Positions 2,014-22,204 of a stretch of 25,631 bases of DNA are shown in pieces. The DNA is taken from contig JAHBMJ010001775.1 of assembly GCA_018398765.1 (NCBI GenBank), forward strand, positions 1 through 25,631, read 5' to 3'. This DNA comes from Chromera velia. Its lineage: Eukaryota; Sar; Chromeraceae. A program made the translations under genes and the position numbers. The number at the start of each line of letters is the position of its first letter. Positions within the stretch are counted from its first letter, which is position 1. The notes beneath the pieces are model-generated. The model saw nothing but the letters and a program-made list of their open reading frames with translations, was not told the DNA's origin and ran no database searches.

Positions 2014-5000
2014 CTAAAGGGCGGCACTCTGTCTGAACAGGGACGCCCACGGAATCACCATCCCGTTTTCTCGAAGCAGAGGCTCAAGTAAATTCCGAAT
2101 TTCTGCTCTTTCTTCCTGCCCCAGCCGATCGAGCACGCCTGCCACCTTCCGACCCTTCAGCTCTCGCTGTCGCCGTCCCCACTGGTCCTGTGTCGGGAAA
2201 AGGCCAATGCCCAGAGGACATCTGGACACATGCTCATGTGGATTACGGTCTTGACTACAGTCACGCAGACAGTACCCACAAAACTGGCAAGTGCAACGGC
2301 CACAGGTCAACTTCGCACAATTGTCGAAGTCTACAAAAGCTTGGCGGCACCCAGTCCGGGGGCACTTGAAGTAAGAATTTCTTCCGTGATCTCTCTCACC
2401 TTCCTCTGTGCCCCGTCTTCCCTCAGTGCCCTCCGCAACCTCTTTTTGAACGCTGTTTCCATCTCTGCCCGCACCCTCTCCTCCGCTGCCTCCAAACGGA
2501 CCCCCTCCCACTGCTGCAGGACCTCCGGGCGCAGAAGACGCGCAAGGTCGGCATGGGCAAACGGGTTGGAGGGACATCCGGGGGCAACGCATGACACTCC
2601 GCAGTCAATGGCCTTGAACCGGGCACGCACGTCGCTGTACTCTGGATCAACTGAGCTCTGTGCCTGCAGGTGTCCGTTCAGACAGTCAGTACACATAAAG
2701 TGCTGCAGCGAGGCATCTGGGGACTTGGACACACACATAATCCCCCTGTCCTGAAGGACAACCTCAAAGCACGTGACACACTGTGCAGTGTCTACGGCTA
2801 TCTGTGAAAAGAGAGGGTCTTGAAGAACCTGTGTAGCAGTAGGGCGGTCGGAGGGATTCTCTGCCCGCATGCGATCGAGAAGCTGCTCGAGCGCTGCCTG
2901 TCGTTCAGGCTGCTGTGCTAGTACCCCCCCTCCCAGCAGCTCAGCAAGGGTCATCCCCGCAGAGAATACGTCACTCTTGGGGGAAGCGGGCCCTCCCGCA
3001 CGCACCTCCGGGGCAAGATAGTGAGCAGTCACGTGCAGAATTGTCGTTGCACGCGGCTGTCCGTTCTCACTGACGTCCTTGATGCCATCAAAATCCCCCA
3101 ACACTCCCCGACCCCGCTCTGTGAGGAAAAGGTTTAGCGGTTTGACATCGCAGTGCACCTTTCCTTTGTTGTGAAGGAAGGAGAGAGCCGACAGAAGGTC
3201 TTCTGCAAGGCGCAGGCTGGCTGCTGCGTCTCTTCCACCCTCTGCTGGCCGATCCCTCATCCAACCCGCCAGGTCCCCCCCAGGGTAGAAGGGCATCTGC
3301 ACAAATCCGTACTCACCCTCCTGCCACACAGCAACAACAGGACACAGGTGGGGGTGCTGCAATTCGTGCAACATTGCCACCTGCCTGTAGAAGTGTCGGA
3401 CTGCAGCCGACCCCTCCCCTGTGGTCCCCAACTGAAATCTTTTCAACACCCACTTTCTGCTCTGCAGATCCATGCATGTCAACACCCTCGCAAGGCTGCC
3501 CGTCTGCGGAGAGGGTTCAGACAAGACCTCCTCGTTTCGGAAGTCCCGACGAGAGGACCGGCCTTGCAGAAGGACCCCGGCGGAGAGGAGGGCCCCCTGA
3601 TTCGCAACTGCCTCCACATCGTGCCGGGTGACACTAAGGAAGTCGCCCCCCTCCCACAAGAGCTCAGGGAAGTGGAGGGACGCTAGACTGAGCAGATGCG
3701 CCCGCTGACGGGCGATTGCTGCTGGGAAATTGTTTGTTGCTGCCTGCTTTTTGAGCTCTCGCAACTCTGCCTGCAGTCGTTCTACCTCTGTCTGCGACGT
3801 GTTTGAGGGGCTCTCATCACTGTCGACAGCATCTTCGATTCCTCTTTCTCTTTTGCGAATCTGCTTTTTTTCTTTTTTCTGAGCGTCGAGAAGACTCGAC
3901 AGCCTCTGCCTCCCCTCCTGCAATTTCTCCGGATTTGCCAATGCAATCCCTTCCCGGAACTCCACAGCTGCCGCCTCCACTTTCTGCAGAGATTCTTTCA
4001 GCTCTTTTTCAAGTACAGACACATCCATCACCTGCCGCCCCGCCGCTGTCACTTGTTTCACTACATCCTTCCCCCGCCAATCGCCGCCCCCGCCCCCTTC
4101 GAGAGACACGGAGTCCTCTAGTCTCCCCATCAGATCCCTGAGCTTCCCCTCTTCCCCCCCCACCCTCTCTAACTCCTCACAGGCAGAGGGAAACCCATCC
4201 ATGCGGAGGTCGAGTGCTTCTCTGACGCGTGCAATGGAGGCCTCTGTTGCTGCCCGTCTCCATACGACCTCCACCCCCCTCTGGCGCTGCCACTCTTCTG
4301 CGAGAATCACTGCAGACCGAGCTATGTCTGCGAGTGACAAGTTGTCTAGTGAAGTCGTAGCACCAACAACATCTCTTCCTAGGGCGGCCTGAATTCCCTC
4401 CAATGAGGCCTGCAGACGGTCAGCAAGGGTCGTTGTGTGAGGGGGAAGATTCGGGTTATCGTCCTTCACCCCCTCAGCTGCCAGCTCCGGAAGTTCCGCA
4501 GCCACCTGAGAGCCTTCTCTCAAACAGCTTTCGAGAAACTGAAGACAGCCTGTCCGTTGGTGGTCTCTGTCACGGACCTCCTCTTCTGACACGGGGCGTA
4601 CTTCTGTTGAAGCGGCCGCCGCTACTCTGTCTCGGAGCTCTTTCTGGCGGTCCCGGAAGGTGTCTGTGCGTTGGAGTGCTTCTTTGAGGGAAGTGACTGC
4701 AGTCCGAGCCCGTCCGAGCAAATCCGACAGGTTCACTTCCTGAGAAGAACAGAGAGATCGCAACACGGAGACGAAGTCGGTCCAATGAGGAAGGGGAAGA
4801 CCTGTCAACCCACCGTCTTCCGTTTTCCCCTCGCTGCCCACTCCGCGAAGGAAGAGAAAACGGGCCTTCAGATCGGCTGCCGTCTCCTGGAGAGGCCGCT
4901 TTTCGTTGGTTGTCTCTGTCTGGACTGCCGTCTCTTGAAGGGTGACTGTCTCACCAGCTGCCGTTGCTCCCCCCTCTCCATGAGTGATGGCATGAACGTT

Positions 5001-5111
5001 TTGAGGAAAGTTCTCACCTCTCACCCTGCCACACCAGTGAGGGTCCCTGAGTTTTGTGGCCACATCTCTGTTATCTCTCTGCTCAGCAATGTCAGCGGCA
5101 ATCTCAGAGTC
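2014..5111 (-). CDS. Terminal exon: ankyrin cap, coiled coil, kinase, RING/IBR-like
   Basis: One long exon. Its first residues ([20 protein letters not shown]) align in register with the starts of the upstream ankyrin exons and look like a C-terminal ankyrin cap. The acceptor is CCTCTGCAG, cut after 5112. The frame also stays open upstream to an ATG at 5153, which directly follows another acceptor-like TTCTCTCTTAG. The kinase has Lys in [16 protein letters not shown] and LAPEV. The RING-like part reads CVTC...HFMCTDCL...CGVSC...GC. The IBR-like part (CPRTGC...[15 protein letters not shown]...HEHVSRCP) is in a different frame. The first frame closes at 2331 and the second is open from 2592 to 2014. 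A 35-nt GT-AG intron at 2365-2399 would also restore the frame, but it would delete residues that the family normally keeps. Confidence 0.8.
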
Positions 5112-8100
5112 CTGCAGAGGTGATGCCGCACATACAAAAGATTCCGTAAACATCTAAGAGAGAAGAAGCCGTGCAGGATATGAAACACCGCATTATGAAG
5201 AAACGGTTTATGATTATAAAGAGGTCTGTCGAAGCTGGCGTTTACAGAGCAAAAGAGGTCTGCAGGGTTACGCAATCGAAAACAGAATGGAAGTACAGGG
5301 CTGACGCAGCCATAGGCAAACACACACTGCCGTACACGTATGAACTTTTTCTTCACGATCATCGAAGAGACCCATGTGTACCGCAGACCTGTCGATCAAA
5401 TCCTTAGCTAACGGATTCCGGCCAGCAAGAAACAAAAACTGCTGATTTTTTCCCGCTCACCCCAAACCTCTAACGAGTCCAGTGTTACAGAAAAATTGTG
5501 CTGTCAAATCAGCTAGATGGAAAACTCTTTGACCACACCGTGACTCACGTTATCCTTCACATGAACGTCTGCCCCCGCTCGCAGCAGAGCCTCAACCATC
5601 TCCAGGGTCCCATTCGTATTGGAAGCAGCCTGATGGAGAGGCGTCCATCTAAACTGCAGCCATACAGGCGTAGAGACAGAAGGAGAAAAAAGGGTGAGAG
5701 AGAGAACGTTCCCTTAAACTACAAGACGAGCGCTCTCGATTCACTTCGGGGAATCATTTTCGAGGCCTTCATGCACTGATTGCTGCTGCGACACTCGCAC
5801 ACTTGTTCACCTCAAGTCACTGACCACATCCACCCATTTATGCCGGAATTGCAGACTCGTGCAGCACATCAGGCCATCTTAGTCACGAAGAAAAGCCTTG
5901 AACACGACCCGAAAATAGGACCAGTACTGAACAGTCAGCCTTATTTAGCCTTGCATCCATAAGCAGGTGGATTGACGGAAAGAACTCGATCACACACAAG
6001 AGAAGAGAAACGCACGACCGTGAGGCAGAAAAATGATAACATTAAGCTCGGAGCTGAGGGCCAGCACTCACTACTCACTCACTCACTCACTCACTCTCAC
6101 TCACTCACTCACTCACTCACTCTCCCACTCACTCTCCCACTCACTCACTCACTCACTCACTCACTCTCCCACTCACTTTCCCACTCACTCACTCACTCAC
6201 TCTCCCACTCACTCTCCCACTCACTCACTCACTCACTCACTCACTCACTCTCCCACTCACTCTCCCACTCACTCACTCACTCACTCACTCACTCTCACTC
6301 ACTCACTCACTCACTCACTCTCCCACTCACTCTCCTACTCACTCACTCACTCACTCACTCACTCTCCCACTCACTCTCCCACTCACTCTCCCACTCACTC
6401 ACTCACTCACTCATTTGATTCCATGAAAGGGGGGCCTCTTGTGAGTCAGACCGAGAGAAGGAAGCAAAAAGGGCAAGGAGCAAAATCCCCCCAAAGGTAT
6501 GTGAGATAGAATTGGATTCCTCGTTGTTGAAAGGTGATCGTTATGCTTTCATGCACAGGTCAATTACGTAAGTGCGTCCCTTCACTTCGCCCCCCCGGCT
6601 CCGGGTGGGACGAATACTTTCAACGCAGAAGAATATGGGACTGACTGACCCATGCATTCCACCGAATCATTCAAATTAAGTCAAAAACAATTGCAACATG
6701 CTCCGACATGCTCGAAGCGCAACACAATAATATCTACCGATGGACATGTGTATGGGTCATTTGACCGCCGACCACTCCGAGGCAGACGGACAGACAGAGT
6801 CCCACATACCTGGCCCTCCTTCGCTTGAACGTCTGCCCCCGCCCGCACCAGAGTCTCGACCATTTCTGGGGTACCGTTTTCATTGGAAGCAACGCAATGG
6901 AGAGGCGTCATTCCGTTCTGCAGCCACACAAAATGACAGAGAAATGCCAAGCCTAGAATTGCATGCACAATCAGAGCAATCGTGGTTTCAATGAAACAGA
7001 TCGAGGCACGCTCCGGCAGTTCACGTCTGACGAATCTACTCACTCCGTGTCACTCAGCACGTCCAGCACTCCACGCATCCATCTATCCATCCATCCATGC
7101 ATGCATGCATGCATCCATCCATCCATCCATCCATTGATCCAAGTGTGCATCCAGAAAATGAAGATGCGTAGAGCAAAGCAGGCACTTTAAATTCAACATG
7201 AAGAAAACTCATCAGGACCCCAGATATACTCCAAACAAACTAAAGAACCAACAGAGTCAACTCACTCCACCGATCGCAGAAAGATGCCCTGGTGGATCGA
7301 TCAACAGAATCAGGCGATCGAGGCATTCACCAACGAGAGAAGAGAAGCAAAGCACACACATGCAGATGAAACGCTTAACCGACGAAGAAGAGAAGGGAAA
7401 AAGGCGAGGTTCAATAATGAAAAGCAGGTCCCACCCCTCGCGATTCCTCGTTGTCACAACTTCACCACGCATCCATCCGCAAATCGCATGAATTTCTCGG
7501 AATCACAAAGTACGCCTCAAATATGTAAAGGAGGTCTGTGCTGAGAAAAAAACAAATCTTTGAGAGGAAACGAAACAATTACCCTCATCCAAACAAACGC
7601 ATACAAAGGGCATGCAGAAAAGCCCCCTCCAAAGAAAGAAAAAATCATGCCCTCCCTGTCTCTGCACTATGACAACAGAAAGACTCACGCTTTCCTCTGC
7701 CCGGACGTCCGCCCCCGCGCGCACCAGAGCCTCAACCATCTTTGCGGTCCCGAAAATAGCAGTGTAATGAAGAGGCGTAACTCCATCCTGCAGCCATTTA
7801 AAGGGACAGGGAGAGGTCACACCCAAAATTAGACGGCTTCATAGCACGGCCCCATTTTTGATGCCTGCCTCAGTGCACCGATACCCGCGCAGTTACTTCC
7901 ATCACGTCCACTCGTCCAGCACATCAGGTCATCTTTGTGGCGAGAAAAACCTTCAACAGGGCCCAAAAATAGAATCAATACTCAACAGTCAGCCTCATTC
8001 ATGAGCAGGCGGATCGAGGGAAACCACCCGATCACAATGAAGAGAGGAGAAAGCTTTGCACGCTCATGGGGAAGAAAGGAGGAGAGGAGCTCGAAGCTCA

Positions 8101-8613
8101 AATTGCGAAAGACGAAAAGCACGCCGAGCCTCAACCGGTTTATCTCTCCCAAAGGACGTAGACACGTGCAGCAGCATCTCTTGTGCTCTGTTTACGTTAA
8201 GACATTACTAATCGTCCATCCACAGATCACTGCTGCCGTATGTCTTCACAAATCCCCCCCGTCTCCGGATCGATCGATCGGTGGTGAATTTCTTGAAATG
8301 ATACAGAGAAGAGTTCATGGCTGCGAACGGAAACTCCTCTGAAAATACATTATTCAAACAAACTCAAAAGCACCTGCTCACACCGGGCTCAAAGGCTTTT
8401 TTTTTCCTGAAGGAAAGTGAAGGAAAGTGCATATCATTTGACCACTGTGAGAAAGACGAAAGAAAGCCAATAGCGATGTGAGAAGACTCACATTGTTCTT
8501 CGCATGAACGTCTGCCCCCGCCCGCGCAAGAGTCTCAACTATCTCCGGGGTCCCGTTCCGAGCAGCCGCATGCAGAGGCGTCCATCCAGTCTGCAGCCAC
8601 ACCCACACACACC

Positions 8614-8677
<64 letters not shown>

Positions 8678-10024
8678 ATGTTCCTGCAAGGGCAGAGCAC
8701 TCTCTTCTGAATCATTGTACAACCGTGTCTGTGCTTCTCCATCATGCTTCGGCCCCTCATTGTACCAGCTGTTGCGGCGCTCGGTCTCATCCTGTCTCTC
8801 TGCTCGTGTCCATTCTGAAACACCAAAAATCAAATAGTCGCGGACAAAAGAAAGCTTCCAACAACAGATAGAAAGAACATATGGGAGTGGTTCGGACAAA
8901 TCAATCAATAAAGACTCCCGGCCCCAAATAATTGAGCGCTCTACTATCGGAAACACCAATCGAACGAAGACCACCCCAAGCAGAAAGGTATGCGCCAGGT
9001 GAAAACACGAAAAATTGGTACGGCGAAAAAAAAGCACACATTGGAAAACGCAAAGGGAAGAGGAATTTTCACAAACTCACAGCAGGATCTCTCCAGTTGA
9101 TTGGTGCCCCCTCGCGAAGGAGACGCCGCACTCCGGAAATATCCTTGTCGTGGGCAGCCTGTGCCAACTGCCGTCCTTTCCTCTGCAACAGCCGAACAGA
9201 GAAATTAAATCCGGCCGGAGAGAAATTTGGAGTGGGCGCTGACTAGGAAAGCGACACATTACATGTAGAACAGGAAGGGCATCACCTCTCCTCGTTTGTG
9301 TCCCTGTCTGTCTCTTCGATTTGGATTCCCTGAAGGTCTGTACAAAGCTCAACGTATGATCACATCCATGCAGACATGGACCACTTCGAGCAGATAAGGG
9401 TCCCAGAAACTGTTTTGGACAGTGTCGCAGACAATGCGGAATATTGCTCCCCGCAATTTGATTTCCAGGTCATGGAAGCATAGACAGACAGAGAGAGAGA
9501 CCTTGTAGAAAGATATCATCCATGCAGAACACATTTCCCAGGACAATTCGTGTCTGCGTCCACTGCTCCAATCCGAACAAAGGACAGGATCCAAAGGAAA
9601 AAAGACGAAGAGGGAGGAAGAGAACGAAGACAAGCACGTCCACAAATACAGTAGCATCACGCATCCGAAATGGCATCAGTGCATTCACCTGGAGTGCCAG
9701 GCGAGGAAAAGTAGAAAAAAAGATCTGTGAACGCTTCAAGCAAGGTTGAGAAAAAGAACACTGTCAATTGCATGGCTCAGACTCAGAAGGAACTCCATGA
9801 GGAAAAGAATTAAAGTTGAGAGCAAATGCCTGTCCTCTGAAGCCAAACAAACTTGTCCAGCGGCATAGCTCCCTTCATTGCTGCCTCTCTTTCCCCACAA
9901 TCGGTGAGGATCAGGGATAAAGGTCGGGATAAAGGTCAGACACTATACAGCTTATCGTCTCAATGAGAAAGAAAGACACGACGTTGGACCATAGACCACA
10001 TCTGGTTGCACTCACCTCAGCCAT
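2014..10024 (-). CDS. Ankyrin repeat - coiled coil - protein kinase - RING/IBR-like protein, 7 exons, frameshifted
   Basis: Predicted cytosolic signalling protein or RBR-like ubiquitin ligase of about 1206 residues. My exon model, in transcription order, is 10024-10016, 9182-9081, 8590-8492, 7787-7689, 6917-6810, 5653-5549 and 5111-2014. All six introns are phase 0. Donors are GTGAGT-like (GTATGT after the fifth exon) and acceptors end in CAG. Predicted order: MAE start; ankyrin repeats at about 4-195; Glu/Ala-rich helical and coiled-coil region at about 480-635; kinase at about 712-943 (Lys731, HCD 827-829, DFD 847-849, APE 874-876); RING-like Cys/His cluster from Cys952; an IBR-like CxxxxC...CxxC cluster; and a helical tail. 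One base appears to be missing at about 2367-2371, so the last domain lies in another frame. The chain is inferred from splice sites, phase and repeat register; no transcript was seen. The kinase exon could instead be predicted as a separate gene starting at the ATG at 5153. Confidence 0.72.
5549..9182 (-). CDS. Five ankyrin exons, one repeat per exon
   Basis: Transcription order: 9182-9081 (34 codons, [11 protein letters not shown]...[11 protein letters not shown], a typical N-terminal ankyrin cap); 8590-8492 (33 codons, [19 protein letters not shown]); 7787-7689 (33 codons, [13 protein letters not shown]); 6917-6810 (36 codons, [15 protein letters not shown]); 5653-5549 (35 codons, [15 protein letters not shown]). 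Each starts just after a GGCTGCAG or TTGCAG acceptor, and all but the first repeat end GADVxAK/E just before the donor. The 35- and 36-codon exons carry two extra residues in the turn of the repeat. All boundaries are phase 0, so exons can be added or skipped without shifting the frame. Ankyrin repeats serve as protein-binding scaffolds; the ligand is unknown. Confidence 0.85.
5755..6005. repeat. Intronic segment duplicated at 7848-8062
   Basis: This intron piece, upstream of the ankyrin exon at 5549-5653, is clearly related to 7848-8062, upstream of the ankyrin exon at 7689-7787. Shared landmarks in the same order are CAGCACATCAGG, GAACAGTCAGCC / CAACAGTCAGCC, GAGCAGGCGGATCGA / AAGCAGGTGGATTGA and CGATCACA. 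It shows that ankyrin exons were copied together with flanking intron. Confidence 0.7.
6066..6413. repeat. (ACTC)n minisatellite
   Basis: About 350 bases are built from CACT/ACTC tetramers with regularly placed CTCCCACT variants, all inside the intron between ankyrin exons 6810-6917 and 5549-5653. It gives open frames in several phases (Leu-Thr-His-Ser repeats), which are artefacts of the repeat. Nested higher-order units can be seen, since the CCCACTCA variants recur in pairs. Confidence 0.95.
7078..7135. repeat. (CCAT)n / (GCAT)n microsatellite
   Basis: A run of CATC tetramers with an internal GCAT block, within the intron upstream of the ankyrin exon at 6810-6917. Confidence 0.85.
7848..8062. 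repeat. Intronic segment duplicated at 5755-6005
   Basis: Second copy of the intron block described for 5755-6005, in the same orientation and on the same side of its ankyrin exon. A shorter and weaker related fragment (CAGGCGATCGAGGCATTCACC) may be present near 7312-7370, upstream of the ankyrin exon at 6810-6917. Confidence 0.65.
8598..8673. repeat. (CA)n(GA)n compound microsatellite next to a splice acceptor
   Basis: A CA run followed by a GA run. On the transcribed minus strand this reads (TC)n(TG)n and ends about 10 nt before the GGCTGCAG acceptor of the ankyrin exon 8492-8590, so it appears to supply that exon's polypyrimidine tract. Confidence 0.85.
9183..10015 (-). other. First intron of the ankyrin-kinase gene
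   Basis: It is bounded by GTGAGTGC (donor, high-coordinate side) and GGCTGTTGCAG (acceptor). Two minus-strand open frames cover 9349-9739, but they show no family signature and have no matched pair of splice sites that keeps phase 0. They are treated as non-coding. Confidence 0.5.
10016..10024 (-). CDS. Initial micro-exon ATG-GCT-GAG
   Basis: Nine coding bases (Met-Ala-Glu) are followed immediately by GTGAGTGC, a strong donor. Joined in phase 0 to the exon ending at 9182 this gives [13 protein letters not shown], a plausible N-terminus for an ankyrin cap. The intervening 833-nt intron (9183-10015) has no clear extra exon. The assignment is inferred from position and phase only. Confidence 0.55.
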
Positions 10025-11130: not shown

Positions 11131-11793
11131 TGCGTTGCATAAGACATCGAGGTACGAAGGCAGGAAACCCACTCAAAGAAAAGAAACTCTCTGTTGAAGA
11201 CGACTTCTGCAGAAAACGTCCGTCACACACTGGCAGCCACATAAATCACTTTCCTGAGCCGTCTTGCTCCAACTGCCCCTCTTCCTTTTCTCCAAAGTAT
11301 TTTCTAATGGCTTTACTTCTCGCACAGAGACAGACATACACCAAATCTTCAGTAATGAACCGATCGTACCCCTTTCTTCCCTTGATCGCGAGAGGAAAGC
11401 GTCGATTTGAACAGCGGGTGCCTGTGAGCGTGCAAGGAAAAAAGCTCAACACTCACATAAAAGAACAAAAAAGCGCTTGCTTCTCTCCCCTTTCCTCCGT
11501 CCCTTCATTTCATTTCATCTGTTCAAGTTCAAATGCATCCATTCACTCAAATTAACACAGCGGGCATTTCTTGCATTGCATTCTATGCTCATGTAGCTTG
11601 TTCAACCTCGTTCATTGAACGAAGAGAAGATTCAAGATGGATACAATAATACAAAAGATATTGATAGATTGAGAGAATGGGAGTGAATGGAGATGACGGA
11701 CCAAGGATGCGTAAGATGACACTCTCTCCATCGATCTGTAGCACATCTGTTGAACGGCTCACACATCCACTGTTGCTTTACGGCATCCGTCCG
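11131..11793. other. Intergenic stretch, nothing recognised
   Basis: Moderate-GC sequence with short open frames on both strands (for example 11246-11452 minus, 11307-11555 plus). None has a domain, a signal peptide or a plausible splice context. Confidence 0.4.
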
Positions 11794-12098
11794 TCTATGC
11801 AGCAAGACGGTTGATCGAGCACTCTTCGCAGGCAAGTGAAGAATATTAATTTAGTCTATGCAGCAAGACGGTTGATCGAGCACTCTTCGCAGGCAAGTGA
11901 AGAATATTAATTTAGTCTATGCAGCAAGACGGTTGATCGAGCACTCTTCGCAGGCAAGTGAAGAATATTAATTTAGTCTATGCAGCAAGACGGTTGATCG
12001 AGCACTCTTCGCAGGCAAGTGAAGAATATTAATTTAGTCTATGCAGCAAGACGGTTGATCGAGCACTCTTCGCAGGCAAGTGAAAAATATTAATTTAG
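11794..12098. repeat. 61-bp tandem repeat, five copies
   Basis: Copies begin at 11794, 11855, 11916, 11977 and 12038, each starting TCTATGCAGCAAGACGG and ending AATATTAATTTAG. They are virtually identical; the last copy has GTGAAAAAT in place of GTGAAGAAT. The near identity points to recent expansion or homogenisation. Function unknown. Confidence 0.95.
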
Positions 12099-12654: not shown

Positions 12655-13380
12655 TTACCATGTTGTGCGTCGGTCTGACTCCGACAGCACACGAGATCCT
12701 GCACTGACACCACGAGGAGGCACGAGGATGACAGGAACTGAGGCAACCCCACCCGTCAGAAGAGGAACAAGTGTCTGCTCACCGCAGCCCCAGTCACCAG
12801 AGAGCTGTAGGGTGAATTGTGGACGGAGGAACGGTGTCCCTCTCCTCTTCCTTCTTCCTACTGCAGCAACATCTTTACTTTCTTCCTCTTCCTCTGCGCT
12901 CTCTGCAACTGCTGTTTCGTTTTCATTGGTGGAAAATCGCCTGTGCGTGCCGTACAAACCGAAGAGGTGACCCAACCCGGGCACCCTCTCGCACACGAGA
13001 ACAAGACCAAAGGCGCATAGGACAGACAGGGATAGCGCGAGAACAATGAGACCACTCAGGGGCCATGTGGTCTTACTGGGCCATACACAGAACAAGACGA
13101 AGAACTGAAGAACCAGCCAGTGGGAGAGATAGAGGAGGAACCCTGTTTTGTTGATCAAATCCATCACTCGGGGCGTCAGAAATTGAGAAGCGCTGTAAGT
13201 CCACTGCGCTACCGCACACAGGAGATACACCCACACCCACGCAATCAACATGTCAAATGGTCTCTGTTCAGTTGAGTGACCTCCAGGAAAGTTGAGATAC
13301 ACCTGTTCTTTCTCAAGACTGTCGTCCGCAAAGCTCATGCACATTAGAGGTCCGATACACGCTTCCACAACCACGAGCAA
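12655..13380 (-). CDS. C-terminal part of the acyltransferase (frame after the shift)
   Basis: This frame contains SFGQALLVVVEACIGPLM, two further membrane segments, GFLLYLSHWLVLQFF, a final hydrophobic segment and a long hydrophilic tail with a Glu run (AEEEEES) and a basic RRKRR cluster. The frame before the shift runs 13956 to 13344 and ends shortly after QGFIDGEFRSENES. The overlap of the two frames and a TGA at 13441-13443 bound the shift site; the AAAA run read on the minus strand at 13423-13420 is a good candidate. Confidence 0.65.
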   Translation of the reverse strand: MLVVVEACIGPLMCMSFADDSLEKEQVYLNFPGGHSTEQRPFDMLIAWVWVYLLCAVAQWTYSASQFLTPRVMDLINKTGFLLYLSHWLVLQFFVLFCVWPSKTTWPLSGLIVLALSLSVLCAFGLVLVCERVPGLGHLFGLYGTHRRFSTNENETAVAESAEEEEESKDVAAVGRRKRRGTPFLRPQFTLQLSGDWGCGEQTLVPLLTGGVASVPVILVPPRGVSAGSRVLSESDRRTTW

Positions 13381-15581
13381 CGCTTGCCCAAAAGACTGCC
13401 GTCTCCAAACAAACTCTCGTTTTCTGAACGAAACTCGCCATCAATGAATCCCTGCATGTAGAATAAATTGAAGTTCGCAACCATGTGCAGCCACTGCACG
13501 CCAGGGAACCCCACGTTTGCCAGCCCTATGGACACGCCAACGTTGAGGACAAGCACAGCGGGAGAAAACCAATTAGGGACGGGCCTCTCCCTGATCCAAC
13601 ACTGTACCCACACACACCCCACCGTGCAGAAGTGAGGCAGTGCGAGGAGGAGCATTGCAGGCTCGTACCCGCACCCAGCCACTACCCCTACAGAGAAGAG
13701 AGAGACAAGGGTCAGCCCCGTGACGCCCCTCCCCACGGTTGCACATCTCTTTTCTGACCGCGGCGCTGAGTCTCCGACCTGCCGCCTTGAGACGAATCTG
13801 AAAAACGCGTGGTTCATCAGTCCGAAAACAAACAGGACGGCAAGAAAGCACAGGTGCAATGTGCCGCTCTGACCGATCACCTGGAAGAACTGTGAGAGAC
13901 CGGTCACGAAGTTCCACTCCCCCCCCCCCAGTGGCCTCCCTTCATTGTAGAACTCTCTGCAGATTGGATAGGACACAAATCACGCGTGCCGATCCTTAAT
14001 TCATGCAGAGCTCACGTCAGTCACACGAAGAGGATGCATCAGTGGCTGCCCCGTGCACCTTCCTTTTGTTGAACAGTCAAACGAGTCAATCTGACCGACG
14101 TGGGGAACGTGCAGAGGAGGCATGCAGGAAAAAGCAAGCAGACATTCATTTCCTCTGTCATTGCCTTGCCGGTGCCGTCGTGCCTGTCGAGAAACCGGCC
14201 GAGAGAGGCCAAACACATGCGAGAGATAAGGGAGGGGGGTGTATGCCACTAGGCGGGCCTGCAGATCCAGATCACAGGCCACACAAAGAGAATTGACGCA
14301 CGCACATGCCGACCTACCTGCAGATCCAGATCACAGGCCACACAAAGAGCAGCCACCCTGCGACGAGAGGGACGAGGAGTCGCCACGACCGTTGTGCAAC
14401 GAAGGAGAGGGAGGTGACACGAGGAACCACGAAGGACTCCGACAGTCCGGAGGCGTAAAAGAGGATCGCAAGTGCGAACTGCGCACCGAAGCTCCGGGCT
14501 CTCCGGAGACGATTCTTTTCGCTCTCTACGATCATCGGCTCACCCCCATTCTGCTGCATCAGCAAGCACGAATCGAATAAACCTATTTATTTATTCTTTT
14601 CGCTCTCTACGATCATCGGCTCACCCCCATTCTGCTGCAACAGAAAGCACGAATCGAATAAACCTATTTATTTATTCTTTTCGCTCTCCACGATCATCGG
14701 CTCACCCCCATTCTGCTGCAACAGAAAGCACGAATAGAATAAACCTATTTATTTATTCTTTTCGCTCTCTACGATCATCGGCTCACTCCCATTCTGCTGC
14801 AACAGCAAGCACGAATCGAATACCTATTTATTTATTCTTTTCGCTCTCTACGATCATCGGCTCACCCCCATTCTGCTGCAACAGAAAGGATCGCCAGGTA
14901 GGAACGGATTTGTTGGAAATATTGTAGGCAATTCGTTCCGTTTTTCTTCCGGTCTCGCTCCTTGTTTCTCCCTTTTTTTCTCTTTTTTCTCTTCTTTCCT
15001 TCCTTTCCTTCCTTCCTTTTTCTTTCTTTCTCGAGAAGAGACTTTGAGAGCAATCCATGCAGTGACACAAACACATTCACTTTTCTCCCCACGCACGCAG
15101 ACAAACGAAACACACAAATGAAAGACGGGGGAGCCTGGCACCGGAAGGAAGGAGGGAGGGGGGGAGGAAGAGAGAGACTGCAGAGTTATCTGTACGTGCG
15201 TCTCTGAGACAGTGAACTGACCCTTACGTGGTCCATACTGCGCTAGAGAATGTCGTCCAAGTGACCACACACGACCGTGACTACGGCAAAGAAGCGGACC
15301 AAGTCCAGCCAGTGGAGGTGGACGTGCTGCGTTCTCGTTCCCGTCTCCCCGACCTCTTCTTCTCCTTTCCTTCCCTCCCTCCACGTCTCCTGCTTTCCCG
15401 TCTCCGAGTCAAGGACTGATGGCCGCAGTGAGAGCGGAGCGACCCTGTCATCCCCCGTCTCGCCTTTGCGCAGCAGTCCTATTCCAGTTTCGATGTCTGG
15501 CACGGAGGGCTTCGTTGAAGGGAAATTCTTCTCAGAGAGCGACGGAACAACATTCGCAGTTGGAGAAACCGTACCTGCCAT
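12655..15581 (-). CDS. Acyltransferase-3 family membrane protein, 3 exons, in-frame TAG and frameshift
   Basis: Predicted multi-pass membrane O-acyltransferase (acyltransferase-3, OafA-like fold) of about 630 residues. Exons in transcription order are 15581-15228, 14553-14318 and 13956-12655. Exon 1 has a Ser/Glu/Lys-rich tail and a first membrane segment with RFFAVVTVVCGH, matching the R-X10-H motif of the family. Exon 2 carries membrane segments LAILFYASGL and LLVPLVAGWLLFVWPVIW. Exon 3 adds about eight more, including the typical late segment GFLLYLSHWLVLQFF, then a charged C-terminal tail. Junctions fit: exon 1 to 2 in phase 0 (GTAAGG donor), exon 2 to 3 in phase 2 (TGCAG/GTAGGT, then ATCTGCAG). 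Two defects are seen: a TAG at 15243-15245, five codons before the exon 1 donor, and a one-base shift between 13440 and 13345. Adding one base makes the spliced length an exact multiple of three. Substrate unknown. It may be a pseudogene or an assembly with errors. Confidence 0.7.
14252..14344. repeat. 33-bp direct repeat spanning the exon 2 donor
   Basis: The last 32 bases of acyltransferase exon 2 plus the first intron base (minus strand, about 14349-14317) recur inside the intron at about 14290-14257, ending CTGGATCTGCAGG. The first copy is followed by TAGGTC and forms the donor. The second ends in CAG and resembles an acceptor. Joining to the second copy would give a stop within three codons, so the acceptor at 13957 is preferred. 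Confidence 0.8.
14512..14889. repeat. 81-bp tandem repeat carrying a splice acceptor, about 4.7 copies
   Basis: Copies start at 14512, 14593, 14674, 14755 and 14834 (period 81, the last step 79). Read on the minus strand, each holds a TTGCAGCAG or ATGCAGCAG acceptor and the first 42-45 bases of acyltransferase exon 2 (CAGAATGGGGGTGAGCCG...). Only the copy nearest the exon (acceptor at 14554) continues into the coding frame; the others reach an in-frame TAA after GAAAAGAATAAA. The CAGCAG is also a tandem NAGNAG acceptor. Confidence 0.9.
14890..15227 (-). other. Intron 1 of the acyltransferase gene (5' portion)
   Basis: It is bounded by the GTAAGG donor at 15227 and the repeated acceptors below 14890. 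It contains a plus-strand pyrimidine tract at about 14955-15035 and a purine tract at about 15145-15180. The minus-strand open frames here are Arg/Lys/Glu repeats and are not coding. Confidence 0.5.
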
Positions 15582-16212
15582 CGTGCAGTAGAGAGAGTCA
15601 AAGCAGCGCTTCCCACCGTATGCAAGAGGATGGAAGTAGCTGAGGAAATCTTCTTGCGTGAGCCTGGCACTCGTCCTCTCTCCCCAGGGCCTCGGTTCTT
15701 GTACATGTCCAGCTAGCTCTGGCTGTGTTTTGCATGAGACACTGCATCGATCCCCTGCACGCGCTCATTAATTTGCAACCCTTTTTATTAAATTCCTTTT
15801 TTTGTCAACCGCATTTTGCAACACGCAAATGCAACATGCATCTCCTTGCAAGCACTCCGCGCGAATTACCCCGGAAAGCGAAATTCAGTATTTTACTCCG
15901 CGCTGAAATTTGTTTAGTGCCCTCTCAGCTTCTGCTTTCCGGGGCTTTTGCGTGCGTCAGGATCTTCAGTTTGATTAATTCTTACTCGCATGTCCCACAC
16001 AATTTGCTTCGACTGCATGTGGAATTCGGTTAAAGCGGCAGCTGAGTACTTCATTGCTCTAGAAGTTTGTTCTTTTCAACTCTTCAGGCGTCCGTCGCTG
16101 AAGCACAACGAGCACCTCAGCAGCCCCGCAAGTGTCTGCATGGCTGCAGTGGACCCGGCCTGTATCCTATCCTAAGTAAAGTACAACTGTCTCCTTTCTT
16201 GTGTTCCTCCCA
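15582..16212. promoter_or_regulatory. Shared upstream region of the divergent acyltransferase and secreted-protein genes
   Basis: About 630 bases separate the acyltransferase ATG (15581, minus) from the small secreted protein ATG (16213, plus), so divergent promoters are likely here. A minus-strand frame with an ATG at 15706 overlaps the acyltransferase start in a different phase; it could be an upstream exon or untranslated sequence, but no intron fits well. No core promoter element is clear. Confidence 0.3.
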
Positions 16213-16512
16213 ATGAAGTCTCTGTTGGCGTTCGTGTGCTCTGTCTTCATGACAGCAAGTGCTCAAGATCTTCTTCAAGGAGCTCCAGAGGCTGATTCCA
16301 TTGCGGATCTTACGTCACCGCCTTCGGTAGCAGTCTCTGGCTCTTCTCTCCCGTCTCGCTCAGAGACGGGGACTATTGAGGCGCAGCAGCAGGGTTCTTT
16401 CGCGCGGGACGTGGGCAGAAACTTTCGTGATGCCGTCCGTGACACTGCACGTGGGCGGGTTGACGACCGTGTCGCTGCCGGCCGTGACCGTCGCGATGAA
16501 CGACGAGGCTAG
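16213..16512 (+). CDS. Small predicted secreted Arg/Asp-rich protein
   Basis: 99 residues. The first 18 or so (MKSLLAFVCSVFMTASAQD) form a textbook signal peptide with a likely cleavage after TASA. The mature part has a Ser/Pro/Glu-rich segment and an Arg/Asp/Gly-rich end (RDVGRNFRDAVRDTARGR...). I chose the ATG at 16213 because the hydrophobic core starts directly after it; the frame is open four codons further upstream without an ATG. I recognise no family. The charged tail with RD spacing could be a disordered binding or mineral-associated segment, which is speculative. The protein may continue in other exons, since an acceptor-like TCCTTTCAG lies at about 16802-16810. Confidence 0.5.
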   Translation: MKSLLAFVCSVFMTASAQDLLQGAPEADSIADLTSPPSVAVSGSSLPSRSETGTIEAQQQGSFARDVGRNFRDAVRDTARGRVDDRVAAGRDRRDERRG

Positions 16513-18423: not shown

Positions 18424-18670
18424 TTCCGCCGCAATTCCCGCGTCTCCGCGTCTCCTTCAAATGCACAAAATTATTAATAAATCGTTTTTTGGCCGTGGTT
18501 AGCCGCGGTCTGGGTCATCATTGTTTCTCTTCCGGACCTTCAGCTTTGTGTGAACGTAGCACTGAAGACGTGCCCGTCATCTCATAGTTCCGACTGTTGT
18601 GAGATGAACAGGCAGTGCTGTCCCCGTCCGCTGTGAGGGCGCGTTTCGATCCGCACGCTGAACGAACAGG
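18424..18670 (+). promoter_or_regulatory. 5' flank of the large ankyrin gene
   Basis: Sequence leading to the ATG at 18671, probably holding the promoter and 5' untranslated region. GTTGTGAGATGAACAGGCAG contains an out-of-frame ATG at 18603 that could act as an upstream start. No clear core element. Confidence 0.25.
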
Positions 18671-21600
18671 ATGAAGTTCCAAAAAGGGTCAAAGGAAGTG
18701 ACCTATCTGGTCAGGAGTCAAGTTTTGGACCTTGGTTCTCTCTGGACATTTTCCGGGCTTTCGAAACAGCTCCTACCTTTGAGGAAAGACACGTCAGATG
18801 ACGGTCTCGGAAGTGTCTGTTTTGATGCCGTCTCCAATAGAGAAGACCTGTTCAAGCTTGTTTACCATTTTTTCAAAGTGACGGACAGGTCTTCTTCTCC
18901 TCCTCCTCCTCCTCCTTCTTCTTCTTCTTCTTCTTCTTCTGCTGCTGCTGCTGCTGCTGCTTCTTCTTCTTCTTCTTCTTCAATTTTGGGAACAGGAGGA
19001 ATGCCGGATCTGGAGGATTTGTGCAAAATGCTCCAAGGCCGTTACCCCTTTCTCCTCGTGCGCGTGTTGGAAAATTATCCCACAATGCTGAGAAAAGTCC
19101 AATGCATCCTGGGCGATAGAGACGAAGACAGCACTAGTGCGGGTCCCCTAAATGGCCTCCAGGAAGACTGTCTCTCGACTCTCTCGAGAGAGGAACCGGT
19201 GACGATCACAGTCGAGGGAACGAGCAGATCTGCCCCTCTGCTAGTTATTGTTCTGGCTCTGGAGAATTTGGACTCTGCAGAAGCGCTGCTCGACGCGTCC
19301 GCGCGGGTAGACGTGTGTGAGTGGTGGGGACAGTCTCCCCACATTAACATCGCGGGCAGGACTCCCCTGCATGCGTTGCTTGAATTTCTGCAGAGGGCCA
19401 AACAGGAAGGGGAGGGGGGGATTCAGAAGCGCGAGCGGGGTTTAGGTCTACTTCGTCGTCTTGCAAAGGCCTCCAGAGAAGCAAACTGTCTCCGTTGGGA
19501 GTTGCGGGTGGGGGGTGGGGGGAAAACGACGACAGCGCTCGGCTTAGCCTGCATTTACGGTGATGCAGAAGCCGTCAAGGTGCTCAGGGAGGAGGGGGGG
19601 GCAGCAGCGGTCAACGTGAGGAGCCTTGCTTTCCTTGCCATCGGAGGGTGGGAGGAATTCTTCGGAGACAGGAGATATCTCACTCCTCCTCCCTCTAGTA
19701 ATGAGCGGGCGGAGGTTGTGAGGGCCCTCGGAGAAATGGGGATGGTTGTGAATAGGGCAAGAAAGATTGACGGGCACACGCCCTTGTCCCTAGCCGTTGC
19801 TCGCACACGTGAGGCCATTGTAGAGACTCTCCTCGATCTCGGGGCTCTCTCTTTCCCCTCCTGCCCGCATATCATTGACCCTCCCGCGTCTCCTACAGAG
19901 ACTCAGAGTCTCTCTTCCTCCCCCAGTTCACCCCCCTTGTCTTCTTCCCATCCTCTGCCCACAGTCGATGAGGTGTCCCCTCTTCGACTAGCGTGTGAGA
20001 AACAAACCCCCTCACTCGTCCGTCTTCTCTGTGAGAAAGGAAAGGCAAACCCGAATGCCCCTGGGAAGAGGGAGAAGGGGGGGAGGGCCGCGCATCCCGT
20101 CATGGCTGCCGTCCGCTCATCGTCCCCCTCGTCCGATTCCTCCACCGCAGAGGTTGTGACGATCCTACACGAATTTAGAGCAGACATGAATTTCCCTCAA
20201 TCACTTGAAGACGACAACCACACACCCCTCACACTTGCCGTGTCCCGAGGTATGATCGAGACTTCCAAGGCTCTGGGATCCTCTGGGGTCCACAACGCCG
20301 CAGCTCGGCACACACTCCCGAGGAACCCCGTGATCGAGGCGATGGCTTCCTCCGAGAGCGCTACCGACCTGCTTTCCTTCTTGTTGGAGAGGGGAGCAGA
20401 TCCAAACCAGCTCGGTCTCCTTGAGATCTTCCGAAAGGGAGAGAAAGGAAGAGAGAGAATTCTCGTCTCCCCTCTGCAGGCGTCCCTGTTGACAGAACAA
20501 GAAGACCTCCTTGCAATTGTGAAGTTGTTGATCCATCACGGTGCGCGCTGCGTCCCCCCCCCAAGGACTCAGAGCCTCCGTTCCCCCGAACCCCCCGCCT
20601 CCTCAGAAGAGGTGTCCCGTCCCTCTCCCCCTCCTGTGTGTCAGGCCTCTGCCTTGCTCTTAGCAAGCTCTGACAAGAGGACTGGCCATCTTTCTGCAAA
20701 GATTCCCGATCTCATCCGTCTCCTTTGCAGTGAGGGAGGGGGGAACCCCAACCTGCCGGGGAAGGGTCGGGAGGGAGACACGCACGGTGAAGAGTTGCCT
20801 CTGCAGGCTGTCTTGCGCCTTGCGTCCGAATATGATGATGCTCTAGGCTCCCACTATGAAGAGCGCACGAAAGACCCGGCTCTTGTAGAAGACGTTGTTG
20901 TCCCTCGTCTGTTGGCGCTGTTGATTTGTGGTGCCAACCCGAACGCAGTTGCGGGAGACGGCCACTCTCCCCTGTCGCTTGCTTGCTCCCTCGGGCTGGA
21001 AGGGGCAGCTGAGCTCCTGCTCGAGAGAGGGGCGAAACCTCGGGGTGTGCGGGCGGCCGGGGCAAAACACCGAGTGCCCCTCGTGGAAGCCGCCAGACGT
21101 CTATGCTCCCCGGCTCTGCTGACTCGGCTGCTGGACAGAGGGGCCGACCCCAATGCGAGGGGGGTGGTGCGACTGAGTAAGGACCTAGAGGTCCTCGCGT
21201 CTCCTCTAGAGGTGGTCATGTACGAGTGTGACCAAAGAGTCATGGACGGGTATGTAGGGAATGTAGACGAAAAGAAAAGGAAGTGCACGGAGGAAGCTTC
21301 CCAGCTGTTGATCGACCGTGGAGCACGTGCAGATTTGCCTCCGGCTGCTGCAGCGACGGTCACCTCCCAGACAGCAGGGGGGGGCGGTGAAGAGATTGAC
21401 AGGGCAGTTGACGCGGTTCGTGTTCCATCAGCCAGAGAAAGACAGATCTCCCCCCTTGTGATCGCCTGCCAGGTACCTTTCTGTGACACTCTTGTCCGTC
21501 GACTCTGCAAAGAAGCGAAGGCGAATCCCAACGTCCGTGGAGACACGTTTTATGATCGCAGGAAGTTTCCCCTAGCCGTCGTGCTCGAACGCTACAATCT

Positions 21601-22204
21601 CAATAGGACTGTCCCCAAAGGGAGCGTCGAACTTCTGAAAGCGCTCATTGAGGTCTGTCGTGCATTTTGAAGGGAATGTTGCTAGCCGCATAGAGAGTGT
21701 GTCCCTGTTTGTTTGCAGAACAGAAACTCTTGTGGTCATTCTTCGCGACTTTCCTCTTTCATCCAGAAATGCAATCGGAACTGCATGCAAAGATCTTGCG
21801 CCCATGTCCTTGATTTTCTTCCATGATGAAGTGCCCACCCGTGCCCCTCTCTGTCTTTCCACTTCATAAGCAAATCTGAGGTCCGTCAGTGACTCCCGTC
21901 TTTCTTGTGTTCTTCTTCCTCCTGTACCCACTTGCAGGCGGGAGCAGACCTGTACAAACAAGAGAGCTGGCCTAGAAATTTGCCCCGCTGGTTGTCACGG
22001 ATCAGTGATCGCGACCTCCTTCTGCAACTGATCAGGGCAGCTCCCTTCGGGTTGATTGACTTCCGGGGACCGAACCTGCTTCATTATTTTCTCAACGAGA
22101 AGCCGCCGTGGAAGGAGGGCGTGGTCGCTCTGATTGAGAGGGGGGTCACTGTGCTTGAACGGCTGGAAGAAAAGGTTGCTGCACTGATGGAGGGGGAGAG
22201 TTGA
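18671..22204 (+). CDS. Large degenerate ankyrin-repeat protein, 2 exons
   Basis: Exons 18671-21652 and 21938-22204 give 1082 residues. The splice is phase 0: ALIE at the end of exon 1 joins AGADLYKQ, making a normal ankyrin ALIEAGADL. The donor is the weak GTCTGT and the acceptor CCACTTGCAG. Residues 1-73 are a non-repeat N-terminus; 74-104 are Ser/Pro/Ala homopolymer runs; from about 185 to the end there are ankyrin repeats (for example GRTPLHALLEFL at 229, GHTPLSLAVARTR at 368, HTPLTLAVSRG at 517, LLERGADPN at 571, GHSPLSLACSLG at 764, LLDRGADPN at 820). Long insertions separate the repeats, and blocks headed by SPLRLAC/ALLLAS/SPLVIAC followed by RLLC-EKGKANPN recur at about 434, 658 and 926. 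No enzymatic domain is seen; probably a protein-binding scaffold. No signal peptide or membrane segment. Confidence 0.85.
18886..18981 (+). repeat. Coding TCT/CCT/GCT trinucleotide repeat
   Basis: Consecutive runs of TCC/CCT, TCT, GCT and TCT codons encode Ser, Pro6, Ser8, Ala7 and Ser7 inside the ankyrin protein. The purity at DNA level indicates recent slippage, so length may vary between strains without changing frame. Confidence 0.9.
21653..21937 (+). other. Intron of the large ankyrin gene
   Basis: 285 nt, from GAG/GTCTGT to CTTGCAG/GCG. Reading through it instead adds only VCRAF before a stop and loses the second half of an ankyrin repeat. The donor is atypical compared with the GTGAGT consensus of the other genes. 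Confidence 0.75.

Follow-up and report, generated by a model that had tools for sequence, protein, structure and literature searches.

A probable ankyrin-kinase-RING1 gene of an expanded Chromera velia family, with its Rcat-like zinc half out of frame as assembled

Introduction

On the minus strand of contig JAHBMJ010001775.1 of Chromera velia (assembly GCA_018398765.1), small ankyrin-coding stretches precede a long frame that holds a protein kinase and a cysteine-rich region. Do these pieces form one gene, and does that gene carry a ubiquitin-ligase module to its end? The window, which is the whole stretch of 25,631 nt analysed here, had received an initial annotation that joined the pieces into a seven-exon gene at 2014-10024, read its last part as an RBR-like cysteine domain, and considered the combination unusual. 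Arabidopsis KEEP ON GOING (KEG) is described in a section of PMC11020294 as an E3 ligase with a RING-kinase-ankyrin-HERC2-like layout, whose ankyrin repeats are able to bind substrates; a section of PMC6118397 also lists it. Since KEG joins RING, kinase, and ankyrin repeats, the domain combination has precedent. In the following, we examine the splice structure, the family, and the zinc region of the Chromera gene.

Materials and methods

The genome searched comprised 177.8 Mb in 4040 contigs. C-numbers denote contigs and L-numbers denote family loci; the window is contig C1772. Exon 7 was used as the query against the genome, and family loci were counted at 178 bits or more. Stretches farther upstream were read for C1022, C1613, and C575. 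For the evaluation of splice signals, the flanks of the repeat exons were redrawn under a first-order Markov model, and an in-phase AG and an in-phase GTRDGT were sought within 9 nt of the repeat ends. A profile built from 13 family tails was searched against PDB sequences. Domains were assigned with Pfam. The 16-row alignment includes one row (L020) that starts late and nevertheless covers the helix-C and DFG places.

Exon structure of the ankyrin-kinase gene

The exons and the last intron end were placed as follows.

10016..10024, minus strand: exon 1, start micro-exon coding for MAE; donor GTGAGT; a counterpart is present in the sister locus L031
9081..9182, minus strand: exon 2, ankyrin N-terminal cap, 34 aa; Pfam Ank 12.5 bits, E 0.2, below the cut-off
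8492..8590, minus strand: exon 3, single ankyrin repeat, 33 aa; Pfam Ank E 1.9e-10
7689..7787, minus strand: exon 4, single ankyrin repeat, 33 aa; Pfam Ank E 4e-06
6810..6917, minus strand: exon 5, single ankyrin repeat, 36 aa; Pfam Ank E 4.3e-08
5549..5653, minus strand: exon 6, single ankyrin repeat, 35 aa; Pfam Ank E 2.8e-09
5112..5153, minus strand: most likely the 3' portion of the last intron, but coding with an acceptor at 5153
2331..5111, minus strand: exon 7, last ankyrin half-repeat, linker, kinase, and first zinc module; in-frame stop at 2331-2333

The lengths of exons 1-6 are all divisible by three. All six introns (437-1156 nt) are GT-AG, with CAG acceptors, five GTGAGT donors, and one GTATGT donor, and every junction is in phase 0. 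The six phase-0 donor/acceptor pairs of the initial annotation were thus borne out, on the minus strand, as was the MAE micro-exon at one end (10024-10016), which has a similar start exon in the sister locus on C1022. The seven-exon model stood in its layout and its six junctions; its last acceptor is most likely misplaced, and its last exon, drawn to 2014, is not a single open frame. The Pfam Ank cut-off was exceeded by four of the five repeat exons, and the tandem repeats of ~33 residues are those of an ankyrin repeat protein.

Under the redrawn flanks, the product probability of an in-phase acceptor and a consensus donor at all five repeat exons was ~2.6e-12 with the exons treated as independent, a value that overstates the splice case because the repeat exons are partly duplicates of one another. 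The DNA of exon 6 is ~80% identical to that of exons 3 and 5, and the intron 5' of exon 6 matches in part the intron 5' of exon 4 (82%), as tandem exon duplication would give. An 88-copy CACT array occupies 6065-6413, within the intron separating exons 5 and 6.

The last acceptor had been set at 5153 (TAG/ATG, the slash marking the junction), where an ATG opens the 940-codon frame, and the kinase exon had been said to open as an in-register ankyrin cap. The ankyrin register does run into exon 7, where the half-repeat starts at 5111, but the first 14 residues from 5153 are non-ankyrin. A CAG in the 5111 register (CTGCAG/GAC in the window) is common to the window and six relatives chosen by eye from the 16 loci (7/7). 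The acceptor of the kinase exon is most likely 5111 rather than 5153, which was set aside for this shared register; with 5111, the 14 non-ankyrin residues at 5153-5112 become intron.

Family evidence for a single gene

The exon 7 search returned at least 24 other loci besides the window, one of which (on C251) matches only the section before the kinase. The closest relative, C1022 (L031), shares 77% identity with the window over residues 73-937; the two group together in the tree of 16 rows (support 100/99). Leading up to the large exon of C1022 are a nine-base start exon first, next a cap exon, then an ankyrin exon, and finally a decayed ankyrin exon of 86 nt. The start micro-exon lies at 6028 of L031, and a 44-nt match of 81.8% runs across it. 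Two matches, the window and C1022, were obtained in the genome search with the cap exon (E up to 0.1); a short cap-like match at C1613 came from a separate upstream scan and was absent from that search, so weaker ones exist. No in-phase GTR donor was found for the cap exon of the sister, where a scan of 80-160 nt from the cap start gave one donor, out of phase. The second ankyrin exon of the sister (L031 8569-8654, 86 nt) no longer keeps the frame; skipping it would do so, because the neighbouring exons are in phase 0.

Sense ankyrin matches were present upstream (up to 1.5 kb) in 14 of 29 family locus records, some of which are two pieces of the same gene, versus 0/29 for upstream antisense matches and 0/29 for a downstream control (1.2 kb). 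In a pattern scan run without a control, 9 of 27 records, the window among them, showed a single-repeat exon in phase 0. The exon order of the sister and the 14/29 versus 0/29 contrast agree with the earlier joining of the ankyrin pieces to the kinase frame. That the ankyrin exons and the kinase exon belong to one gene is well supported at the sequence level, the sister locus being the strongest evidence; the lack of an in-phase donor for the sister's cap exon counts against it.

Copies seem to come and go within the family: stops interrupt the main match in 7 of the 24 other loci, or in 8 with the smaller C575 piece counted (L006, L014, L015, L017, L021, L023, L025, and L028), although some may lie in introns. 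Relatives were also sought in viral contigs, where 67 stretches fitted a pattern and none was confirmed by tblastn.

Kinase domain

The kinase, for which a Pfam run had been proposed, proved real by Pfam and maps as follows.

2814..3500, minus strand: protein kinase domain; Pfam Pkinase E 7.7e-30, residues 552-780 of the 940-codon frame

The Pkinase score is 104.6 bits against a cut-off of 31.7. Exon 7 matched kinase models alone in Pfam (E up to 1), with no HERC2-like match. The window kinase retains the catalytic Lys, the catalytic-loop Asp and Asn, and the metal-binding Asp (the first D of DFD). In the alignment as read by eye, HCD replaces HRD in 15/16 rows. The DFG place reads DFD in 11/16 rows, including the window, and DLD or DMD in the other 5/16, so that its Gly is Asp in 16/16 rows; the helix-C Glu place, its position set by eye, is Gln in 16/16. 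Kinase activity is doubtful because the helix-C Glu and the DFG Gly are absent from all 16 rows, and the domain could be either a pseudokinase or a kinase of low activity.

Zinc region

Three features follow the kinase, the last two in another frame than exon 7.

2574..2780, minus strand: RING1-like zinc module with C-x4-C at its end, by pattern
2218..2367, minus strand: Rcat-like zinc module in the other frame, by family comparison and profile; candidate catalytic Cys codon at 2317-2319
2014..2217, minus strand: C-terminal tail in the same frame as the Rcat-like module, homologous to the end of the relatives

The first module of the window has the eight zinc ligands expected of a RING1, the last pair being C-x4-C. 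These ligands are largely conserved across the alignment, where two of the 16 rows (L002 and L007) have another residue in place of the third Cys. The modules are separated by ~70 residues without a conserved Cys in 13 tails, and the corresponding 68 residues of the window contain no Cys. The second module of the relatives is mostly C-x2-C-x9-C-x4-C-x2-C-x4-C-x2-C, followed by more Cys and His, with GC at the third Cys. In this spacing and in the GC, the module is similar to the Rcat of RBR enzymes. The second zinc module of a distant member, L024 (C2226, 35% identical), starts with C-x4-C and comes near the Pfam IBR cut-off (21.6/24.3 bits).

The profile search of PDB sequences yielded 27 matches with E of 1 or less, none of which reached 0.001. 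The top match was the Rcat of Cullin-9, at a weak E of 0.002, and the second was ribosomal eS27 (0.034). Further matches were HOIL-1 (0.045; named in the PDB as "RanBP-type and C3HC4-type zinc finger-containing protein 1"), parkin (0.066), and ARIH2 (0.082), with HOIP and Ariadne-1 lower and several ribosomal zinc proteins interspersed. The RING1-like module aligned to the Cullin-9 RING1 at -0.9 bits, which is no evidence by itself. Pfam IBR_1 scored 10.9-22.2 bits, below the cut-off of 27, in all six tails; it was also below the cut-off in one of two full frames and was not reported for the other (L008). The Pfam IBR model scored 18.4 and 21.6 bits (cut-off 24.3) in the two tails where it was reported, and it had no match in the window tail. 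The structure prediction suggested with the initial annotation was run on single sequences and gave models of too low confidence to be used (mean pLDDT 47.4 for the window tail and 39.1 for the kinase and RING1 part).

No BRcat (IBR) domain separates the RING1-like module from the Rcat-like one; the family, though RBR-like, therefore lacks a defining RBR feature. The RBR-like domain claimed earlier is weakly supported for the family, through the Cullin-9 and parkin matches. In the window as assembled, there is no in-frame Rcat with a catalytic Cys; the Rcat-like module occurs in the relatives.

Frame break between the zinc modules

2367..2370, minus strand: reading-frame change; 22 of the 24 other family loci cross this place in a single frame

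The claim that the last exon runs to 2014 failed here: the 940-codon frame stops at 2331, and 2367-2014 is in a different frame, a change that had gone unreported. Several of the 22 frame-continuous loci bear stops or frame changes elsewhere. As for the remaining two, the motif was not found in C2025, and the C251 match falls short of the place.

We lean, with modest confidence, towards one minus-strand ankyrin-kinase-RING1 gene of an expanded family, the window copy having its Rcat-like half displaced into another reading frame. With that half out of frame, the window product most likely ends soon after the RING1-like module. It would be ~1100 residues long, with the ankyrin, kinase, and RING1 parts kept and the transfer module absent.

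A serious competitor, quite possible although we rate it lower, is an assembly or sequencing error at the frame change, in which case the gene is intact and encodes the full ankyrin-kinase-RING1-Rcat protein, its tail possibly evolving somewhat faster than that of the sister. The window tail keeps 11/11 conserved Cys and His, carries two insertions in multiples of three, which keep the frame, and has no stop in 117 codons. The chance of all 11 sites escaping change is 0.06 at 22 changes and 0.20 at 13. On these features, the tail looks unlike long neutral decay. Pairwise dN/dS is 0.28 after the break, as before it (0.27 overall, 0.14-0.18 in the second half of the exon). dS is likewise higher after the break (0.78 versus 0.37 in the 110 codons before), a further point against a loss of constraint.

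The distribution of unique changes speaks against such an error. With C575, C1613, and C884 as outgroups, the unique residues of window and sister number 22:5, 13:3, and 15:2 after the break versus 41:36, 41:45, and 51:46 before it. At the codon level, the part after the break differs from the whole exon before it (Fisher p 0.020, 0.027, and 0.007, in three tests that share data). When only the nearest 390 codons preceding the break serve as the reference (21:12, 14:13, and 16:8), however, the asymmetry is not significant (p 0.16, 0.10, and 0.15), nor is it when set against the synonymous changes after the break (9:6, 9:6, and 9:4; p 0.16, 0.25, and 0.36). A loss of constraint after the break is therefore suggested, not established, and the window copy may have lost its second zinc half.

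That the entire copy is a pseudogene is unlikely. The frame change would suit this explanation, as would the stops in 7 of the 24 other family loci (8 with the smaller C575 piece, some perhaps in introns), but changes before the break are balanced with those of the sister across the whole exon, dN/dS in that part is 0.27 overall and 0.14-0.18 in the second half, and the six splice junctions are intact.

We consider it very improbable that a 35-nt phase-0 intron (GTGAGA to AAG) lies between the RING1-like and Rcat-like modules and preserves the frame at the cost of ~12 residues. A good donor is present, removal keeps the frame (counted by eye), and L013 seems by eye to carry an intron at the same place; against this, the six other introns of the gene measure 437-1156 nt, the acceptor is AAG instead of CAG, and the residues removed are conserved across the family.

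Two genes, a small-exon ankyrin gene and a separate kinase gene from the ATG at 5153 that opens the 940-codon frame, are hardly credible and were rejected, as the sister shows the same exon order, the cap exon was matched at these two places only (E up to 0.1), and the ankyrin register continues into exon 7 with the CAG of the seven exons chosen by eye.

Proposed mechanism and comparison with known systems

In the preferred reading of a single gene with a displaced Rcat-like half, phase-0 exons with one ankyrin repeat each would be spliced to a large exon with the half-repeat, the linker, and the kinase. The large exon of the relatives adds a two-module zinc region, namely a RING1-like module, a linker without conserved Cys, and an Rcat-like module, with no BRcat. 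In intact relatives, the ankyrin array would bind a partner, the kinase or pseudokinase would modify or gate it, the RING1 would take a ubiquitin-loaded E2, and the Cys of the Rcat-like module would accept the ubiquitin and pass it on. We regard these relatives as candidate fusions of a kinase with a ubiquitin ligase. Since both ends of every ankyrin exon are in phase 0, single repeats could be gained or lost without a frameshift, and the exon-per-repeat layout would offer the family a simple route to swap binding repeats.

We offer as speculation, and rather doubt, a wider proposal: some two dozen family proteins act as kinase/ubiquitin ligases through compact, BRcat-less RING1-Rcat thioester transfer, interchangeable ankyrin exons retarget the copies, and some copies, perhaps that of the window, have dropped the Rcat half and serve as decoys or as kinases alone. 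Should the relatives work as outlined, target binding, a kinase, and RING/HECT-hybrid ubiquitin transfer would be combined in a single polypeptide without the RBR-defining BRcat, and the need for BRcat could be tested on them. A genuine frame break would make the window copy a natural example of the two activities being separated.

The likeness to KEG lies in RING, kinase, and ankyrin repeats in a single chain. The order differs from the KEG type, being reversed in the Chromera gene (ankyrin first, zinc last); the relatives of the window gene add an Rcat-like module after the RING, and exon 7 has no HERC2-like Pfam match. Known ankyrin-repeat RBR proteins share the ankyrin repeats and differ by a complete RBR and no kinase. 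The ankyrin kinases RIPK4, ANKK1, and ILK have ankyrin repeats and a kinase in common with the Chromera gene and are without a zinc ligase-like region. In the Chromera family, as in the RBR E3 ligases covered in a section of PMC3940038 (Cullin-9, parkin, ARIH2, and HOIP), a RING1-like module closing with C-x4-C is joined by a linker to an Rcat-like module, in which GC occupies the catalytic Cys position; unlike these ligases, the family is without BRcat, is fused to a kinase, and stays below the Pfam cut-offs, with the Rcat-like half out of frame in the window. No paper on the family or on an ankyrin-kinase-zinc architecture was found among open-licence PMC papers.

Other features of the window and genome

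Pfam at 1e-3 gave no hit in five further frames (12655-13437, 13347-13979, 15246-15764, 16180-16509, and 21893-22201), and Rfam and tRNA searches of the window gave none. By eye, the minus-strand frames at 12655-13979 and 15243-15764 resemble parts of an acyltransferase with multiple membrane spans. On the plus strand, an open frame of 1002 codons at 18662-21670 encodes ankyrin repeats (Ank_2 E 1.4e-26) and is apparently a separate gene. Two tandem arrays are present, at 11793-12098 (61-nt unit, 5.0 copies, 99% match) and 14512-14888 (81-nt unit, 4.7 copies, 95%). As befits a photosynthetic alveolate, the genome contains 11 alveolin (PF12314) and 58 chlorophyll-binding (PF00504) matches; each family was also found in 1 of 14 control genomes.
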